Made by a program: the position numbers and the translations under genes. DNA of 37,814 nt from a virus. Location of the stretch: positions 1 through 37,814 of the IMG/VR virus record IMGVR_UViG_3300048504_000257; one strand, given 5' to 3'. The notes beneath the pieces were generated by a model. That model was not told the origin of the DNA and did not search any database. It worked only from the letters and a program-made list of their open reading frames with translations. This document shows positions 27,005 through 37,814 of the stretch, one piece after another. Each line of letters begins with the position of its first letter. Position 1 is the stretch's first letter.

Positions 27005-28255
27005 CTAAAATCCTACGGCATCGTCGAGCGGTTCCCACTCGTCAGCCAGTTCAATTCCGTCTAGGTAAGCAATCTGAGCTACTTGGTCACAGTAGCTAAG
27101 CGCGTCGAGGAGATCGTCATGCACTAAAGTTGATGGAAAGTTAGCGGCTTCGTCAATAAACCGTTCATTCCACGGTCCCTTCTTGAGCTGGATAAGGCCA
27201 TTGGCAAATCTGCCCTCTAATGCCCAAGCCACCCTGTCCTCTTTCTTGTTGTTACCGTGAGTAAGCTGTTCTATACGGAACACACGACCTTTACGGCGCA
27301 TCAAGTCAGTAAGGGGGGACATTACTGCCTGCTGAGCAATGCCTTTCTCTATGCCAACCTTCACAGGACGGTACTTTTCGACGGCGGCAAAGATTTCATT
27401 ACAGGTTTGGTCTAAAGACCACTGCCCAAATATGATGTCTTCTACCCACCAGCGGCCATCAGGGGTCACTTTGGTGACTGCCATAGCGGAGTTGTCCCGT
27501 TTTTTGGCCTTCCTCTGGCCTTGTTGCTTAAAGCCAGCAAGGTCAATGGTTATGTAGTGGTCGCCAATCTGACTTTTGCTGTCTTCGTAGTAGATAAATG
27601 AGTCCGGGTCGAACATCCCACCCGTCCTAGCATCAAAGCTAGCCAGAAATTCCTGCTGGAAGGCCCAAGCTGGCAGGGTCTGCCTTGCATGCTCTATCTC
27701 TTTGGGGTCAACAATGGGGTTATCAAAGCTGGTGAAGTGGAAATTCTCCCAGTCATCCCAAGATTCAGAGCCAGCATAGATATCATAGAAGTGGTTACGG
27801 CCCTCTGGCGTACCAATGAAGATAGCTGACCCCTTGCAGTCCGCTAAAGCCGGTCTGAGAATGCTCTCAAACACATCAGGCTTCATAAAAGCGTACTCAT
27901 CTAGAACTAAATGTTTTAAGGACACACCACGGAGGGTATCCGGGCGGTCAGCACCCTTGAGGTATATGACGTTGCCGCCAGCTAGGGTGATTTCTAGGTT
28001 GTTAACGTGGGACTTCTCAATAATGTCCCCCGCTATATCAAATATGGTGTTCCAGATTACGTCACGGGCCTGCCCTTGGGTGGGGGCTACATAGAACGTC
28101 TTACCCTTTTCCCCATTCAGGGCGCTTAGAATAAGGGATACAGCGGCTAAATGGGACTTTCCGGTACGCCGACCCGCCGCAATCACCTTAAAGCGAGCAT
28201 TGGACTGCATCACTTCCTGTTGCCACGGCAAAAGCTCTAGGTTTAAGTCAGTCAT
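27005..28255 (-). CDS. Terminase large subunit
   Basis: A 416-residue protein with both terminase activities. ATPase: Walker A AGRRTGKS (27-34), Walker B LVLDEY (116-121), coupling motif FIGTPEG (146-152). Nuclease of RNase H fold: Asp218 in TIDLAG, Glu293 in GIEKGI, and Asp390/Asp391/Asp394 in HDDLLDAL. It pumps DNA into the procapsid through the portal and cuts it. All key residues are present. The start overlaps the stop of the small gene upstream (ATGA). Confidence 0.95.
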   Translation of the reverse strand: MTDLNLELLPWQQEVMQSNARFKVIAAGRRTGKSHLAAVSLILSALNGEKGKTFYVAPTQGQARDVIWNTIFDIAGDIIEKSHVNNLEITLAGGNVIYLKGADRPDTLRGVSLKHLVLDEYAFMKPDVFESILRPALADCKGSAIFIGTPEGRNHFYDIYAGSESWDDWENFHFTSFDNPIVDPKEIEHARQTLPAWAFQQEFLASFDARTGGMFDPDSFIYYEDSKSQIGDHYITIDLAGFKQQGQRKAKKRDNSAMAVTKVTPDGRWWVEDIIFGQWSLDQTCNEIFAAVEKYRPVKVGIEKGIAQQAVMSPLTDLMRRKGRVFRIEQLTHGNNKKEDRVAWALEGRFANGLIQLKKGPWNERFIDEAANFPSTLVHDDLLDALSYCDQVAQIAYLDGIELADEWEPLDDAVGF

Positions 28256-28477: not shown

Positions 28478-28900
28478 TCATTGTATGCTCACAACGTCTT
28501 GGCCGTTGACTTCAGCTAGAGGCTTTTCTTCTATAGAGCTGACTTGCAGGCCAGTGATGTTGATTTGGACAGCGGAGGATTTCTTATCCTCACCAGAGAA
28601 GGCTGTAGCAGGGAGAATACGATCAGCTATCAGCTTCATGGCCGCTACTTGGCCCTGATGCTCATCATCCATAGCCATATCAAAGAGTTTGGCTACAAAC
28701 GGCTCCAGCCTTGAAGAATTAAGAAATCTAGCCTTCAGCTCATGCATCTTCCTGCGCTGATCAGCCTGTGACATAACAGGCAGTTGCTCACCACGCTTAG
28801 CATAGTCAGCAGATTTCTTCATATCCTTAGTGTTCTTAGAGCTACGGCGAGCCTTACGCTCAGCCGCCTTCTCCATCACCTTGTCGGCAGAATCTACCAT
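28478..28900 (-). CDS. Terminase small subunit-like protein
   Basis: A protein of about 140 residues, helical and basic at the N-terminus (MEKAAERKARRSSKNTKDMK), with the helix AAMKLIADRILP near residue 93 that is typical of small terminase subunits, which recognise phage DNA for packaging. It is the first gene of the late block and precedes the large subunit. I choose the ATG at 28900, which has TAGGA at good spacing; an upstream GTG (28930) adds ten residues but has no ribosome site. Confidence 0.65.
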   Translation of the reverse strand: MVDSADKVMEKAAERKARRSSKNTKDMKKSADYAKRGEQLPVMSQADQRRKMHELKARFLNSSRLEPFVAKLFDMAMDDEHQGQVAAMKLIADRILPATAFSGEDKKSSAVQINITGLQVSSIEEKPLAEVNGQDVVSIQ

Positions 28901-29146
28901 AGGTAATCCTAACGAATACGTTAGGTCCACACTGTATTAGTAATTAGGTGGTGAGTGCAACCGAACAATCAGCTATATAGGGGGGATCATTATGGTAATA
29001 TTCCACAATTACTTGAAAACGCCCTTTGGTTTCTGATATTTTAGGTCGGACGGTGGCACTCGTAAGGAAGCGCATCGTAACACTGCAAGGATTGCACCCT
29101 GTAGCTACATCGCTCCCCCCAGATTGTTGATATCCAGTGGTAGCAA
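28901..29146. promoter_or_regulatory. Divergent control region, left part
   Basis: About 246 bases without a convincing gene. The late block must be transcribed leftward from here or from further right. On the minus strand CATAAT (28994-28989) could be a -10 box, but the matching -35 is poor (TTCAAG at 17 bases). An AT-rich run with alternating C and G blocks follows. The frame at 28944-29153 (minus) starts with TTG, has no ribosome site and is probably not a gene. Confidence 0.3.
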
Positions 29147-29371
29147 TCAACAATTGATTACTAGGTAGGTGGTTTTTCGTAATCTTACGAGGACGACTAC
29201 TCCTGATCGTTGACAGTCACGTACTCCGATCAACGGGTTTTCCAGTTTTCCACTTTTTTTTGTAGTAAAAGAGAGTGGCACCTTCCGTTCCACCAGAGGT
29301 CGGACCCCCTCCCCCCGGTTCTTCCGCACCTGACGGTGCAAAAGGGAGTCGGTTGACCCGATCGGTTCCAT
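29147..29371 (-). CDS. Possible small basic protein with a hairpin over its start
   Basis: A 74-codon frame preceded by a perfect AGGAGG seven bases before the ATG. The hairpin GGTTCC-AGAAT-GGAACC (minus strand 29380-29364) includes the end of that ribosome site and places the AUG at the loop edge, so translation could be gated. The product is basic (QVRKNRGEGVRPLVERKVP) with no recognised family. It begins exactly where the decayed mirror gene ends. Composition is not clearly gene-like, so this is a tentative call. Confidence 0.35.
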   Translation of the reverse strand: MEPIGSTDSLLHRQVRKNRGEGVRPLVERKVPLSFTTKKSGKLENPLIGVRDCQRSGVVVLVRLRKTTYLVINC

Positions 29372-29392
29372 TCTGGAACCTCCTCTGAGTCA

Positions 29393-29619
29393 CGGACAAA
29401 GCAACGCGGTACCCACGCGCCTAACCTAACGGTTAGTCATCGTGACCGCTTCGCCATAAACCATAATACGTACACTACGTTTCCGTATTCTGATTTCCGT
29501 CTTGTCTGTCAGTGTCTTACGTGGTCGCTTACTGCGTAAGCTCAACGTAGTGTCACGGCTCACAGCCCAGCTCTTCGACCACGCATAACGGGTTAAGCGT
29601 ACTCTTTGTTCTGTCCCAT
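29393..29619 (-). pseudogene. Decayed mirror copy of gene 29810-30061
   Basis: On the minus strand the copy starts at an ATG (29619) with AGGAG seven bases upstream and reads MGQNKEY, against MAQNKQY in the intact gene, then stops after eight codons. Further on, in a second frame, it reads IMVYGEAVTM (intact IMVHGETFTI), and in a third frame YRVALSVT (intact YNIALSET). So at least two frame shifts and several stops have accumulated. Protein-level similarity in three frames shows it was once a coding copy. Confidence 0.8.
29521..29583. repeat. Nested inverted repeats in the left arm
   Basis: CGTGGTCG (29520-29527) pairs with CGACCACG (29576-29583), and GCTTAC-TGC-GTAAGC (29527-29541) forms a six-pair hairpin inside it. 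ACACTACGTT (29472-29481) can pair with AACGTAGTGT (29544-29553), crossing the first helix. The hairpin with the same TGC loop and a compensating pair change occurs again at 30101-30115 (GTTTAC-TGC-GTAAAC). Confidence 0.6.
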
Positions 29620-29835
29620 GAGAAAGCTCCTAAGCAGTGAGTGCGAACACTCCTGTCGTAAGGAGTTGTTACGAATGTACCGCAGTCCATTCCGAACGCA
29701 ACCCGCAAGGGGTCGGTGGCGAGCCACCTTGCGTTAGTAATGGCCGGCGGTCCAATCGACAAGCTCCTAACGACAGGAGCATTCACACTAACTGCAAAGG
29801 ATTTTCATCATGGCACAGAACAAACAGTACAACCC
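29590..29835 (+). promoter_or_regulatory. Long branched leader hairpin covering the start of gene 29810
   Basis: Because of the inverted duplication, the leader can fold into one long interrupted helix. From outside inward: GGGTT/AACCC, GTACT/AGTAC, TTTGTTCTGT/ACAGAACAAA, CCATGA/TCATGG (this pairs the AUG at 29810), GAAA/TTTC, TCCT/AGGA (this pairs the ribosome site), GCAGT/ACTGC, AGTG/CACT, a 10-pair helix, AGGAG/CTCCT, ACCGC/GCGGT, CCATT/AATGG, AACGCAA/TTGCGTT. The tip is a three-way junction with hairpins CCC-GCAA-GGG (29702-29711, a GNRA loop) and GGTGGC-GA-GCCACC (29715-29728). Translation of the gene would need this helix opened. No clear sigma70 promoter is visible inside it. Confidence 0.6.
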
Positions 29836-30061
29836 TAACATGCGCGGTGCGATCTGGACTGAGAGCCGAGTCACCACTATCCACGACGACAAGACAGACA
29901 AGCCGAAAATCGTATCTCCCGCTTTCAGCGGGAAGATAATGGTTCATGGCGAAACGTTCACGATTCGCCTTTGGCCTGTCACAAGTGACAATCCAAAGTC
30001 GCCTGCGTACAACATTGCTTTGTCCGAGACTCGTTCATCTAACGCTTCCAAGGAAGCGTAA
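29810..30061 (+). CDS. First early-block protein, 83 aa, inverted-duplicated gene
   Basis: An 83-residue protein of unknown family. The N-terminus is Asn/Gln-rich (MAQNKQYNPNMRGAIW); the core FSGKIMVHGETFTIRLWPV followed by PAYNIALSE looks like a small beta-barrel (OB-like or DUF736-like pattern), which would fit nucleic-acid or partner binding, but this is a guess from shape. AAGGA lies eight bases before the ATG. It stands alone: a strong terminator follows its stop at once, and a long structured leader precedes it, so its expression is controlled separately. A decayed mirror copy lies on its left. Its position as first rightward gene suggests immediate early expression. Confidence 0.75.
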   Translation: MAQNKQYNPNMRGAIWTESRVTTIHDDKTDKPKIVSPAFSGKIMVHGETFTIRLWPVTSDNPKSPAYNIALSETRSSNASKEA

Positions 30062-30068
30062 GATTCAC

Positions 30069-30093
30069 GCCCGGCTTCGCCGGGCTTTTTTTT
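30069..30093 (+). terminator. Intrinsic terminator after gene 29810
   Basis: GCCCGG-CTTCG-CCGGGC stem with a tetraloop, followed by eight T. It begins eight bases after the stop codon. A textbook rho-independent terminator that isolates the first early gene from the rest. Confidence 0.95.
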
Positions 30094-30263
30094 GCTTCAC
30101 GTTTACTGCGTAAACGCTACGCAAAAATTCGGGTCAACCTCCGTACTCTTTACGAGTCCGGGGGTCCGCCCTCTTCCTCCTCTCCATTTTAAGGAGATGC
30201 CTAAACACGCCAACAGGCGATGCCTGACACACGCAACACACACGAACTACAAGGACACACACG
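30094..30263 (+). promoter_or_regulatory. Leader region before the second early gene
   Basis: About 170 bases with hairpins GTTTAC-TGC-GTAAAC (30101-30115) and ACTC-TTTAC-GAGT (30145-30157), then a pyrimidine-rich stretch. An AAGGAG at 30191-30196 touches an ATG with no spacer, so the 24-codon frame there is unlikely to be made. A promoter should lie here because the region follows a terminator, but no good -35/-10 pair is visible. Confidence 0.35.
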
Positions 30264-31468: not shown

Positions 31469-32407
31469 ATGCCTAACTACTCTCGGATTAACGATCCCAT
31501 TTGCGAGCTGGTCCGCCGTGCAATAGACAAGGACGATCCTACTCAGCTCCCGTGGAGACGCGAATGGAAAGCAGGCGATTCGATCATGCCTACTAACCAC
31601 TACACCAACCATCAATACTCTGGCATCAACGTAATTAATTGCTGGGCCAGTGGCAAACTCAAGGGCTTTGAGTCTAATCGCTGGCTCACCTTCAACCAGA
31701 TCAAGGCTCATAACTATCAGCTCATCGGTGAGAAGGGCGACCCTGCTCGCGCATCAACACCCATCCTGTTCTTCAATCCTGAGCAAGTAGACAAGTCCAC
31801 AGGCGAGGTGACACACCACGCTATGTATAAAATCTACAACGTGTTCAACACTGAGCAGATTGTTGGCCTCAACATTGAGCAAGAGGCTGACTTCCAGCAT
31901 GACCCGGCAGACGTTAGCGATGCCATCAAGATACCCAAGGCACTGGGCGTCAAGCTAGCAGGCGGCGAGCCATCCTTTAACCTGCTCACTGACACCATCA
32001 AAATGCCTGACCTCAACAAGTTCACCAGCGTTGAGGCATTCATGACCACGCTTGCACATGAGTGCGTTCACTCCACTGGTCACAAGAAGCGGCTTGATCG
32101 TGACATGACCGGAGGCTTTGGCTCTGCTGACTATGCCAAAGAGGAGCTGGTTGCTGAGCTAGGTGCCGCCTTCATTGCCGCTGAGTGGGGCTTGTCTTAT
32201 TCCCTAGAGAATCATGCGGCCTACCTAACTAGCTGGCTCAAGGCTCTTGAGTCTGATCCCAAGTACCTAGTCGATGCCAGCAGGCTGGCTAACAAGGCAG
32301 TCAAGTTCATCTCTGAGCAGTTGGTTAACTGGGACATCCAGTCAGAAACCAGAGGCTCACTCGACGAGCTACTCCAGTATGACCCAGAGGAGAAGGTATA
32401 TGCCTGA
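31469..32407 (+). CDS. ArdC-like antirestriction protein with zincin domain
   Basis: A 312-residue protein of ArdC type. The N-terminal part (about 1-125) is the ssDNA-binding ArdC-N region (LPWRREW, HYTNHQYSGINV, NPEQVDKSTGE). The C-terminal part is a zinc metallopeptidase-like domain: HECVH at 197-201 with GH behind it, and the downstream EELVAELGAAF (225-235) that supplies the third ligand. All expected metal residues are present. ArdC proteins, first known on plasmids, protect incoming single-stranded DNA from host restriction. It has the repeated early leader and possibly its own promoter, suiting early expression. Confidence 0.85.
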   Translation: MPNYSRINDPICELVRRAIDKDDPTQLPWRREWKAGDSIMPTNHYTNHQYSGINVINCWASGKLKGFESNRWLTFNQIKAHNYQLIGEKGDPARASTPILFFNPEQVDKSTGEVTHHAMYKIYNVFNTEQIVGLNIEQEADFQHDPADVSDAIKIPKALGVKLAGGEPSFNLLTDTIKMPDLNKFTSVEAFMTTLAHECVHSTGHKKRLDRDMTGGFGSADYAKEELVAELGAAFIAAEWGLSYSLENHAAYLTSWLKALESDPKYLVDASRLANKAVKFISEQLVNWDIQSETRGSLDELLQYDPEEKVYA

Positions 32408-34884: not shown

Positions 34885-35505
34885 ATGAGCAAGAAAGACG
34901 ATGGCGTAGTCAACATTCACGGTAAGACTTACCTGACTGTAGCTCGCCGCATTAATGATTTCCGTGCCGCACACGCTGACTACGGTGTACACACTGAGAT
35001 CCTATCCATTGATGAGAACACGGTGGTATGCCGTGCCATCATCACTGATGCTGACGGACGCCAACTGTCCTCCGGCATTGCTGAGGAGCATCGCCGTGCT
35101 TCTAAGATCAACCAGACCAGTGCCACAGAAAACTGTGAAACCTCTGCTGTTGGCAGGGCGCTCGCCTTCCTTGGCATGGCTGGTACTGAGATCGCTAGTG
35201 CCGATGAGGTAGCTGGTGCTATCGCTCAACAGAATGGCGGCGGTGAGGAGATGGACTTCCTTGTGTCACACGCGAACGCTGTGCGTGAGAACCTTGAGGA
35301 GATTTACCAGATCAAAGCCGCTATCGCTAACGATGACATCATGACTGCCGCTGGTTACTACGCAGACATGGACAGGGATACCGTCACCGCCCTGTGGAGA
35401 GCGCCCTCTAAGGGTGGGATCTGGACTACTGCTGAGCGCAAGCTCATGCAGGCAGATGGTGACTTAGCCAAGTGTATTAAGAAGATGAAGGAGGACGCCG
35501 CATGA
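34885..35505 (+). CDS. Candidate ssDNA-annealing recombination protein
   Basis: A 206-residue protein. Residues 10-95 match a widespread phage family: TYLTVARRINDFRAAH, GVHTEIL, then the motif NCETSAVGRALAFLGM. Proteins with an E-x-SAVGRAL motif beside SSB genes are often the phage annealing proteins (Erf/Rad52-like), which pair complementary strands during replication and recombination. The C-terminal 80 residues are helical and probably separate. The SSB-like gene overlaps the stop by four bases. The family link comes from motif memory and context; no exonuclease gene is recognised next to it. Confidence 0.5.
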   Translation: MSKKDDGVVNIHGKTYLTVARRINDFRAAHADYGVHTEILSIDENTVVCRAIITDADGRQLSSGIAEEHRRASKINQTSATENCETSAVGRALAFLGMAGTEIASADEVAGAIAQQNGGGEEMDFLVSHANAVRENLEEIYQIKAAIANDDIMTAAGYYADMDRDTVTALWRAPSKGGIWTTAERKLMQADGDLAKCIKKMKEDAA

Positions 35506-35807
35506 GCGACAACAACCAGTACGACAACACGCTCGTTCTGTTTAAGAATGAGAAATACGAGCAGGGAGGCAAGCACCCCATGTACAAGGGGAACGCTACC
35601 TTCCAAGGCACCAAGCTGAACTGCTCTGTCTGGCTCAAGGAAGCCAACGGTGAGGGCAAGCTAGAGAAAGGCACCAAGTTTTTCTCTGGTACCTTTGACG
35701 ATTGGAAGCCAGAGGGTTCGTATCAAAACAACAAGGGTTCGGGGAAAGCGGACGAAGCTCCGTGGTCGGGCGATCAATCTAAAGGCGACGACGACATCCC
35801 CTTCTAA
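35502..35807 (+). CDS. Single-strand DNA-binding-like protein with acidic tip
   Basis: A 101-residue protein. Residues 8-70 look like a small OB fold (NTLVLFKNEKYEQGG, GNATFQGTKLNCSVWLKE, FFSGTFDDWKP). After a Gly/Ser/Lys linker it ends DDDIPF, the tip by which bacterial SSB binds its partners. So it is likely to coat phage ssDNA and recruit replication and repair proteins. It is translated together with the annealing candidate and ended by a strong terminator. Confidence 0.7.
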   Translation: MSDNNQYDNTLVLFKNEKYEQGGKHPMYKGNATFQGTKLNCSVWLKEANGEGKLEKGTKFFSGTFDDWKPEGSYQNNKGSGKADEAPWSGDQSKGDDDIPF

Positions 35808-35877: not shown

Positions 35878-36108
35878 ATGTCCATCACGGAAAAGTTTGT
35901 ACCACATGAGGAACTGCTGGAGCTGTTTGGTGTAGAGCGCAATGCTACGCTGATGAGGATGCTTGACCGCAACAACATTAGCTACATGACTAACTATAAG
36001 AAGCGCCCCCTCGTTCTCCGCAGTGACATCGAAGCCTTCAACCAGAAGACACCTGAATCAGAGGATGCCCCAACTACCACCGGGCCTATCCTTGAGTGGG
36101 AGGATTGA
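35878..36108 (+). CDS. Helix-turn-helix protein (DUF4224/excisionase-like)
   Basis: A 76-residue protein: EELLELFGVERNATLMRML helix pair, then a NNISYMTNYKKRPLVLRSD wing. The layout suits winged-helix phage proteins of the DUF4224, excisionase or PrtN type. No integrase is present, so a regulatory role is more likely than excision. The last 20 residues are a Thr/Glu tail. AGGAG lies seven bases before the ATG. Confidence 0.6.
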   Translation: MSITEKFVPHEELLELFGVERNATLMRMLDRNNISYMTNYKKRPLVLRSDIEAFNQKTPESEDAPTTTGPILEWED

Positions 36109-36110
36109 TC

Positions 36111-36293
36111 ATGCCACTAGACGCTACCGAACTCACATGCCTACAAGCTGTCCTCAAACACCAGATGGATGAGCTTGAGCGCGACCCCGATCTCTATAAG
36201 AACTTCTCTGCCCTATTCACCTTTGAGACTTTGCGCTGTATTGAGTCCAAGCTGAACGGCTACATCGTGTCGGGGGACTGGCTCAATGGATAA
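36111..36293 (+). CDS. Small helical protein, 60 aa
   Basis: A 60-residue helical protein (MPLDATELTCLQAVLKHQMD). I choose the ATG at 36111, which has GGAGG nine bases upstream; an earlier start (36096) would overlap the previous gene. It overlaps the P-like gene by eight bases. Unknown. Confidence 0.55.
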   Translation: MPLDATELTCLQAVLKHQMDELERDPDLYKNFSALFTFETLRCIESKLNGYIVSGDWLNG

Positions 36294-36762
36294 TGTCGGC
36301 AGAGATGATGTCCTCCACGCCCTGAAATACTGCTATGAGTTTTACCGCAAACCCTTTGAGGACATAGACAAGCAGGTATGGGGCGGCATGATCCGTGACC
36401 ACAACTACTCCTCCTTTCAGTGGAAGGAAGAGATCAGGAACTACATGGGCCGTGGCACCTTCTGCCCCAAGCCCAAAGAAATCCTTGGTGCGCTGGCTGA
36501 GAACCACGAACGCAAGGTCCACAAGGAGAGTCTCCAGATTGAGGAGATGGTTGATGACTGCCCACCTGAGATTCGCAAGGCGTGGTCCCATTGGATTCCT
36601 GTCTTCCACGGTCAAGCCCTACCCTTTGACAGCACCAATGAAGAAGCTGATGAGGGGCTGATTGAAGCATGGCTACTGCTGGTTAATGAGGAAGCCAAGC
36701 GGGTTAACTCCCCTGAGTCCATACCAGATGACTTCAAGATGAAGGAGATATGGGGTGCCTGA
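36286..36762 (+). CDS. Replisome loader-like protein (lambda P-type by context)
   Basis: A 158-residue protein with a Trp-rich middle: VWGGMIRDHNYSSFQWKEEI, RGTFCPKPKEIL, then IRKAWSHWIPVF. The WG-x-x-x and FCPKPKEI pattern is like phage replication proteins of the P/loader kind, which bring host DnaB helicase to the origin. The order HTH - loader - NinB - NinG parallels lambdoid phages. The family is not proven. It overlaps the NinB-like gene by eight bases. Confidence 0.45.
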   Translation: MDNVGRDDVLHALKYCYEFYRKPFEDIDKQVWGGMIRDHNYSSFQWKEEIRNYMGRGTFCPKPKEILGALAENHERKVHKESLQIEEMVDDCPPEIRKAWSHWIPVFHGQALPFDSTNEEADEGLIEAWLLLVNEEAKRVNSPESIPDDFKMKEIWGA

Positions 36763-37175: not shown

Positions 37176-37301
37176 ATGGCCCGTCAGCGAAAGAAGTGGA
37201 TTGACCTATACCCTGAGTTGGCAAAGGACTCAGAGGCTCTCATCAGCATTGTGCTGGTCATGCTGGCTGTGGTGCTACTGGAGTGCAGTACCTATGTATG
37301 A
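37176..37301 (+). CDS. Small membrane protein, 41 aa
   Basis: A 41-codon gene with AGGAG nine bases before the ATG. The N-terminus is basic (MARQRKKWIDLYPEL); residues 21-36 (ALISIVLVMLAVVLLE) are a single membrane span at the C-terminal end. The next 35-codon membrane gene overlaps it. Tail-anchored form; candidate lysis or membrane-effector protein, function unproven. The window's left end carries the last eight codons of another copy. Confidence 0.6.
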   Translation: MARQRKKWIDLYPELAKDSEALISIVLVMLAVVLLECSTYV

Positions 37302-37404
37302 GCTGGAGTGGGCCATCTTCATGACCGTCTTCCAGTTTGTGTTTGTTGGCTGGTGGCTGAGACATCAATGGATTAACAGGAGTAGTAACAATGGCCGTTA
37401 AACG
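37278..37404. repeat. Terminal direct repeat A, right copy
   Basis: Identical to 1-127. Past this point the right end continues into the HNH gene, while the left end continues into the NinG-like gene. Confidence 0.95.
37294..37401 (+). CDS. Small single-span membrane protein, 35 aa (right copy)
   Basis: Identical to 17-124. One aromatic-rich membrane span and a basic tail; overlaps the 41-codon gene before it and the HNH gene after it. Confidence 0.5.
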   Translation: MYELEWAIFMTVFQFVFVGWWLRHQWINRSSNNGR

Positions 37405-37747
37405 AACCGGAAGATACGGGCGGTTGAGCAGGGAGTACCACCGCAAGCCTGTGGATGATCGCCTATCTAACTATGTCGAGGACGAGAACGGCTGTTGGAT
37501 CTGGCAGGGCTACAAGGATCAGGGCTACGGCAAGCTCCGTGACGACAGCAAGTTAGTGCTTGCCCACCGGGTCGCCTATGCCCACAGGTACGGGCCTATC
37601 ACCCCTGAGCTAATGGTCTGTCACGACTGTGGCATTAGGGGGTGCATCAACCCCGAGCATCTGTATCTAGGCACAGCTAAAGACAACGCCGCTGACATGG
37701 TTCGCCACGGTAGAGCGGGAAGCAAAGTCAAACGGGAGTGGGTGTAG
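37391..37747 (+). CDS. Homing-type HNH endonuclease (present only at the right end)
   Basis: A 118-residue protein with the free-standing homing HNH pattern: CWIWQG (35-40), GYGK, AHRVAYAHRYGPI, MVCHDCGIRGCINPEHLYLGT and DNAADMVRHGR. Catalytic and zinc residues are all visible (His in VCHDC, Asn in CINPEH, final His). Such enzymes cut alleles lacking the gene so that repair copies it in. It sits between the small membrane gene and the NinG-like gene, its first five codons are shared with the other allele's NinG-like gene, and the left end of the window lacks it. Complete and probably active. Confidence 0.85.
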   Translation: MAVKRTGRYGRLSREYHRKPVDDRLSNYVEDENGCWIWQGYKDQGYGKLRDDSKLVLAHRVAYAHRYGPITPELMVCHDCGIRGCINPEHLYLGTAKDNAADMVRHGRAGSKVKREWV

Positions 37748-37814
37748 TGGCTTACGGAGGAGGCATCAAGCGTTCGGCGGCAGACAACTGGTTCAGCAAG
37801 TGTGTGCGTCACAG
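37747..37814 (+). CDS. NinG-like nuclease, 5' end of the allele behind the HNH gene (partial)
   Basis: A GTG start shares a base with the HNH stop; GGGAG lies upstream. It reads MAYGGGIKRSAADNWFSKC and continues past the window end. From the Asp of ADNW on it is identical to residues 9-19 of the gene at 114-497, but its first residues differ. Confidence 0.75.
   Translation, partial: MAYGGGIKRSAADNWFSKCVRH
37783..37814. repeat. Terminal direct repeat B, right copy
   Basis: Identical to 138-169; marks where the two alleles of the NinG-like gene rejoin. Confidence 0.93.

Follow-up and report, generated by a model that had tools for sequence, protein, structure and literature searches.

Why should a phage carry an early gene beside a mirror image of itself, and is such an arrangement kept or merely on its way to being lost? 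Long palindromes are expected to vanish fast, yet the one described here persists across phages in which neutral sites are saturated. We examined it in a viral DNA of 37,814 nucleotides (positions 1 to 37,814 of IMG/VR record IMGVR_UViG_3300048504_000257), referred to throughout as the window, and in the corresponding loci of related phages.

An imperfect palindrome with one coding arm

The original prediction for this DNA was of an imperfect palindrome centred near position 29715, in which a whole early gene and its leader had been duplicated in inverted orientation at the switch between early and late genes, one copy having decayed. When 29387-29701 is reverse-complemented and aligned, with gaps, to 29729-30032, both the palindrome and its coordinates are borne out: 227 of 279 aligned columns are identical (81%), 61 further columns are gaps, in 26 indels, and the alignment score of 211 lies far above the scores of 500 dinucleotide shuffles (mean 35.5, SD 6.1, maximum 58). 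This palindrome was the sole reverse-strand match in a blastn self-comparison of the window (E 3e-33), and a separate ungapped comparison recovered the same two arms, in pieces. The centre lies at approximately 29710-29715, inside a small set of branched hairpins predicted at about 29691-29736, and no significant extension of the palindrome was detected past the terminator that follows the gene in the window. Its components are as follows.

29387-29701, minus strand: mirror arm, gene and leader copied in inverted orientation, non-coding (81% identity to 29729-30032; broken frame; old frameshift in common with the mirror of relative L005)
29526-29541, no strand assigned: self-complementary insertion GCTTAC-TGC-GTAAGC in the mirror arm, a predicted side hairpin (sequence; predicted folds)
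29593-29619, minus strand: remnant of the mirror gene start, ATG plus seven codons (MGQNKEYA) and then TAA (direct reading of the sequence)
29702-29728, no strand assigned: palindrome centre between the arms (arm alignment; predicted folds)
29729-30032, plus strand: gene arm, comprising the leader and most of the gene (arm alignments)

The plus-strand gene at 29810-30061 is intact, with an ORF of 83 aa. On the minus strand, the mirror still has an ATG, whose first base is 29619, and a sequence resembling an RBS, and reaches a stop after eight codons; the peptides MGQNKEY, IMVYGEAVTM and YRVALSVT can all be read as had been claimed, the latter two downstream and in other frames. The inverted duplication of a whole early gene and its leader at the early/late switch, with one copy no longer coding, is therefore supported. 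An assembly artefact was ruled out because similarity between the arms is only about 80% and contigs from several metagenomes contain the structure.

Occurrence among related phages

Relatives were obtained by terminase searches, with loci fetched from approximately 200 contigs. The terminase genes of the window lie on the strand opposite to the palindrome gene.

27005-28255, minus strand: TerL, large terminase gene, used as the query for relatives (profile and relative searches)
28478-28930, minus strand: putative small terminase subunit (TerS) gene (position; homologous ORFs precede TerL in relatives; no clear family match)

A homologous gene lies upstream of TerS in six distinct phages (the window, L005, L022, L136, L034 and L084), which include two sister pairs and so are not fully independent, and a palindrome with the gene as its outer arm was found in 6/6 phages carrying the gene at this site. 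Gene and palindrome co-occur here. Palindrome Z values are bimodal: the six gene-bearing loci score 38-137, whereas the roughly 45 terminase relatives lacking the gene never exceed 14. A long inverted repeat was absent from about 90 loci in which the gene family is located elsewhere. Across 302 loci, inverted-repeat alignments of at least 130 columns were confined to these six distinct phages. The symmetry first noticed in the window is thus shared by its gene-bearing relatives. An intact mirror copy, which had been thought worth looking for in other phages, was present in none of the relatives found, and the idea that the mirror is a second gene was therefore rejected. So was that of a palindrome serving the whole group as origin or packaging site, as the structure is missing in relatives without the gene. 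Among cultured phages the locus had no DNA match and the L022 gene no protein match, and a host search by genome scan returned only distant terminase relatives, in metagenome bins.

The gene and its protein family

Three features bear on the identity of the gene.

29810-30061, plus strand: intact 83-aa gene, probably of a phage SSB-like family, without the acidic C-terminal tip (profile searches, family alignment; homologs in L022 and L136 under purifying selection)
30069-30093, plus strand: intrinsic terminator 3' of the gene, just outside the window palindrome (terminator prediction)
35502-35807, plus strand: SSB-like paralog with a DDDIPF tip (profile search, family alignment)

The window protein has a weak profile match to phrog_18154 (E 0.079) and its homologs score better (1.7e-4 for L022 and 3.9e-11 for L034 to phrog_7364); the annotation of phrog_18154 and phrog_7364 is small phage single-strand DNA-binding proteins. 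Proteins of the palindrome genes join a single alignment with tip-bearing SSB-like members. An acidic tip of the DDDIPF type is absent from the palindrome copies, which end in ASKEA, PRQS, VAKAK, EKEA and ELAK, and is present in the 35502-35807 paralog and in most other family members. The predicted structure of the window product is all-beta (pLDDT 79), with no convincing match in the PDB. A dN/dS of 0.17 between L022 and L136 indicates purifying selection, and terminators similar to that of the window lie 3' of the gene in L005, L022, L034 and L084. On this sequence evidence the gene probably belongs to the phage SSB-like family, a placement that leaves unsupported the proposal of a relic of a duplicated anti-host gene.

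Age of the duplication and tracking of the gene by its mirror

Four-way alignments, each containing both arms from two phages, were constructed for the window with L005 and for L022 with L136. The mirrors of the window and L005 have 16 deviations from the genes in common, including a +2 frameshift, and the mirrors of L022 and L136 have 44-49. Deviations common to both phages of a pair imply that the inverted duplication had occurred, and coding had been lost, before each split; they also rule out a separate duplication in each phage within these pairs, though not between clades.

The alignments, which by construction bias each mirror towards its own gene, reveal that wherever the two gene arms disagree, the mirror mostly matches the gene of its own phage: in the window and L005 it does so at 39 sites and is swapped at one, the corresponding counts being 21-22 and 3 in L022 and L136. 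This bias is probably not the whole effect, as indicated by the swapped counts, by a 12-14 nt indel that is matched along with neighbouring sites in both arms of L022 and L136, and by the 23 pairs changed on both sides in the consensus fold described below. The co-variation between arms that had been proposed as a check is present. Identity between mirror and gene is 0.68-0.71 within the window and L005, as against 0.51 between the mirrors of these two phages, and their synonymous sites are saturated (pS 0.79-0.81) in 3/3 genes compared. At this degree of saturation a mirror free of constraint would no longer resemble the gene and, together with the old deviations common to the mirrors, this rules out the free decay of a recent duplicate. 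The description of one copy as decayed is thus correct in that the mirror no longer codes but not in the sense of free decay, since complementarity has been kept while neutral sites saturate. These sequence comparisons show that the mirror is old, does not code and continues to track the gene arm of the phage it sits in. The giant hairpin therefore seems to be upheld and not an accident on its way out. The central ~130 nt of the palindrome are about 98% identical between L022 and L136, and dS between these phages is 1.40 for TerL versus 0.44 for the palindrome gene; a recent exchange of the central segment between the two lineages is possible.

Tracking of this kind may also arise if the mirror has no function. 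Template switching would then rewrite the mirror from the gene, with only gene-to-mirror copying surviving because the gene is needed, and the only selection would be for broken pairing of the gene strand, since folding of that strand into a hairpin would obstruct translation or replication. The matched 12-14 nt indel and the blocks of covarying sites in L022 and L136 resemble copied tracts, bacteria are known to correct quasi-palindromes by template switching (PMC7202029), a process that homogenises repeat arms (PMC8604942). A useless arm of 300-450 bp should, however, be deleted over time and is instead kept in 6/6 loci. We consider a functionless mirror unlikely, though with a real chance of being correct.

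Strand asymmetry of the mismatches

The 322 mismatches of the six palindromes, as read on the terminase strand, comprise 82 G·U, 18 A·C, 37 G·G, 3 C·C, 46 U·U, 11 A·A, 82 G·A and 43 C·U. G·U exceeds A·C on this strand in 6/6 palindromes, and a simulation of strand-symmetric decay gives a ratio of approximately 1.2:1. Differences of C-to-G versus G-to-C stand at 25:1 in the first four palindromes. Strand-biased mutation was ruled out as a cause because the flanking non-coding DNA has no corresponding base bias.

Duplex stability was compared at matched divergence, using simulated decay calibrated by realignment. The terminase-strand duplex is stabler than expected in 6/6 palindromes (z -0.6 to -2.9) and the gene-strand duplex less stable than expected in 6/6 (z 0.1 to 6.3), with a strand difference of z -2.3 to -5.3 across the six loci. 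An uncalibrated simulation had indicated that both strands were destabilised, a result that was dropped once realignment showed this simulation to have under-decayed.

In structured RNAs, the balance of G·U and A·C reveals which strand is read (PMC1892782), a logic that here points to the terminase strand as the one that folds. Yet G·U shows no preference there relative to G·A, G·G or U·U, and so avoidance of pairing on the gene strand accounts equally well for much of the pattern; as mismatch classes are complementary between strands, terminase-strand folding and gene-strand avoidance are inseparable in these data. A functionless mirror would fit the enrichment of the gene strand in true breaks (A·C, C·U, A·A and C·C) and the rarity of G·U and G·G on it, but fits less well with a terminase-strand duplex that is stabler than expected, even if this stability derives in part from the same mismatch classes. 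Arm tracking and strand-specific duplex stability together support the suggestion that persistence of the palindrome hints at selection on its structure or on divergence between the arms.

Predicted folds

The consensus fold of L022 and L136 has an energy of -364 kcal/mol on the terminase strand versus -307 kcal/mol on the gene strand, with 304 versus 280 consensus pairs, and 23 pairs are changed on both sides. Double-sided changes and strand-specific tolerance of G·U are thus both seen, although template switching can also yield double changes. Codon third positions are the best paired (0.805 versus 0.785 and 0.739); this modest effect suggests that synonymous sites aid pairing, and counts weakly against a functionless mirror. 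Some of the larger arm indels are themselves hairpins, which gives the predicted fold the shape of a branched rod. The window locus is enriched in short hairpins. The intergenic DNA 3' of the gene (30062-30263) contains five, as compared with 0.1 expected, and one of the post-gene hairpins (30100-30121) has a loop sequence in common with the side hairpin of the mirror (29526-29547), the two being 82% alike. No Rfam family matched at the gathering threshold anywhere in the window.

Pairing in the six loci peaks over the RBS and start codon (86%) and falls outward, and the predicted fold of the gene-strand transcript beats shuffles by far (z -20). Both features would suit an mRNA that masks itself, in which transcription from a promoter on the TerS side of the mirror would give a leader complementary to the gene that folds over the RBS, hok-like, until processed or unwound. 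This gene-strand hairpin is, however, less stable than random decay predicts in 6/6 palindromes and has very few G·U pairs, and the flank contains no consistent gene-strand promoter; promoter scans for a transcript across both arms gave no consistent candidate on either strand. Self-masking of the mRNA therefore seems decidedly improbable.

Surroundings of the palindrome

One further conserved feature separates the palindrome from TerS.

29263-29318, minus strand: conserved G-rich element between the palindrome and TerS, outside the palindrome (comparison with relatives, including palindrome-free ones)

This element reads CCGGGGGGAGGGG ... GGTGCCACT ... TTACTA on the minus strand, can be recognised in most of the relatives compared, whether or not they carry the palindrome, and is a candidate packaging site or late promoter. 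In relative L104, GTTCCACGAAT is repeated about nine times in tandem upstream of TerS (L104:1310-1420), much like origin iterons. A near-parS palindrome, GTTCYACGTRGAAC, occupies the same intergenic region in two relatives (L007:4511-4524 and L034:5193-5206).

The palindrome might alternatively act as DNA, its terminase strand forming a single-stranded hairpin for replication or packaging at the early/late boundary, possibly bound by the SSB-like protein. Its position next to TerS and the conserved G-rich element, the probable membership of its gene in an SSB-like family and the iteron-like repeats of L104 are consistent with such a role, and DNA hairpins have similar mismatch preferences. Most terminase relatives are nevertheless without the palindrome, which is therefore not the general origin or packaging site of the group, and we regard a DNA element as rather improbable.

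The early block of the window also encodes an ArdC-like anti-restriction protein (31469-32407), an excisionase-like protein (35878-36108) and a weak match to a helicase loader (36286-36762); no DNA polymerase was recognised in the subset of early-block ORFs searched. Repeats link the contig ends (1-127 equals 37278-37404 and 138-169 equals 37783-37814), the right-hand copy holding about 370 extra bases with an HNH endonuclease ORF (37391-37747), a pattern pointing to a genome that is circular or permuted and in which the HNH insertion is polymorphic.

Proposed origin and maintenance

Our preferred, if tentative, reading, to which we give a probability of roughly 0.4, is that an old inverted duplication has been kept as a strand-specific hairpin by template-switch correction and selection. 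An SSB-like early gene and its leader would have been duplicated in inverted orientation at the early/late boundary, after which one copy lost its coding capacity and stayed as a mirror able to pair with the gene over 300-450 bp. Template switching, which can maintain hairpins (PMC8794818), would copy tracts of the gene arm into the mirror during replication. Selection would keep the terminase strand foldable and the gene strand, which is also the mRNA, less foldable, and could thereby produce the asymmetry between G·U and A·C. The likeliest active form would be a long, branched, imperfect hairpin in a putative RNA with the polarity of the terminase genes, transcribed through the switch region in the direction of TerS, with the gene on the opposite strand remaining translatable.

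The locus may further represent a new kind of phage element, namely a gene-length hairpin built from the gene's own mirror, present at the early/late switch as structured RNA or single-stranded DNA, whose mismatches let one strand fold and the other stay translatable; this wider proposal is possible but doubtful. If true, it would mean a structured RNA or DNA element that is invisible to gene-by-gene annotation. The locus also provides a compact case for separating upkeep of long hairpins driven by mutation, through template switching, from upkeep driven by selection.

Comparison with known systems

No report of a gene-length, strand-asymmetric phage palindrome of this sort was found in the open-access literature searched. 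The mRNAs of hok-type systems are inhibited by folding back, and pairing of the leader over the start region could likewise silence the mRNA here; unlike hok, the locus has no toxin-antitoxin pair, and its gene-strand hairpin has been weakened, not favoured. The cabRNA of staphylococcal phages is a structured RNA from terminase genes that is sensed by host CBASS (PMC10686824). It resembles the putative RNA proposed here in being a folded phage RNA from the terminase region but lies within the terS-terL coding sequence with no mirrored gene, and sensing by CBASS is a feature of cabRNA. Template-switch correction (PMC7202029, PMC8794818) copies one arm to the other and explains the matched tracts and indels of our palindromes; the known cases are short stems, however, and correction alone leaves the strand asymmetry of G·U and A·C unexplained.

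Maintained inverted repeats and coding palindromes are already known in animals (PMC1803023, PMC6649704). Mitochondrial genes of Nematomorpha contain perfect coding palindromes of up to 284 bp (PMC6649704), in which, as at the phage locus, protein function and a long inverted repeat are preserved in the same DNA; both arms code in Nematomorpha, whereas in the phages only one arm codes and pairing is imperfect. Long inverted repeats of Caenorhabditis, some with divergent gene pairs, are actively maintained (PMC1803023). These nematode repeats are nearly perfect, whereas the phage arms are about 80% alike with strand-biased mismatches, and one phage arm has been non-coding since before the relatives split. 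In both systems, the arms contain genes and the structure of the inverted repeat is conserved more strongly than its sequence, which by comparison with Caenorhabditis implies an active mechanism of upkeep.
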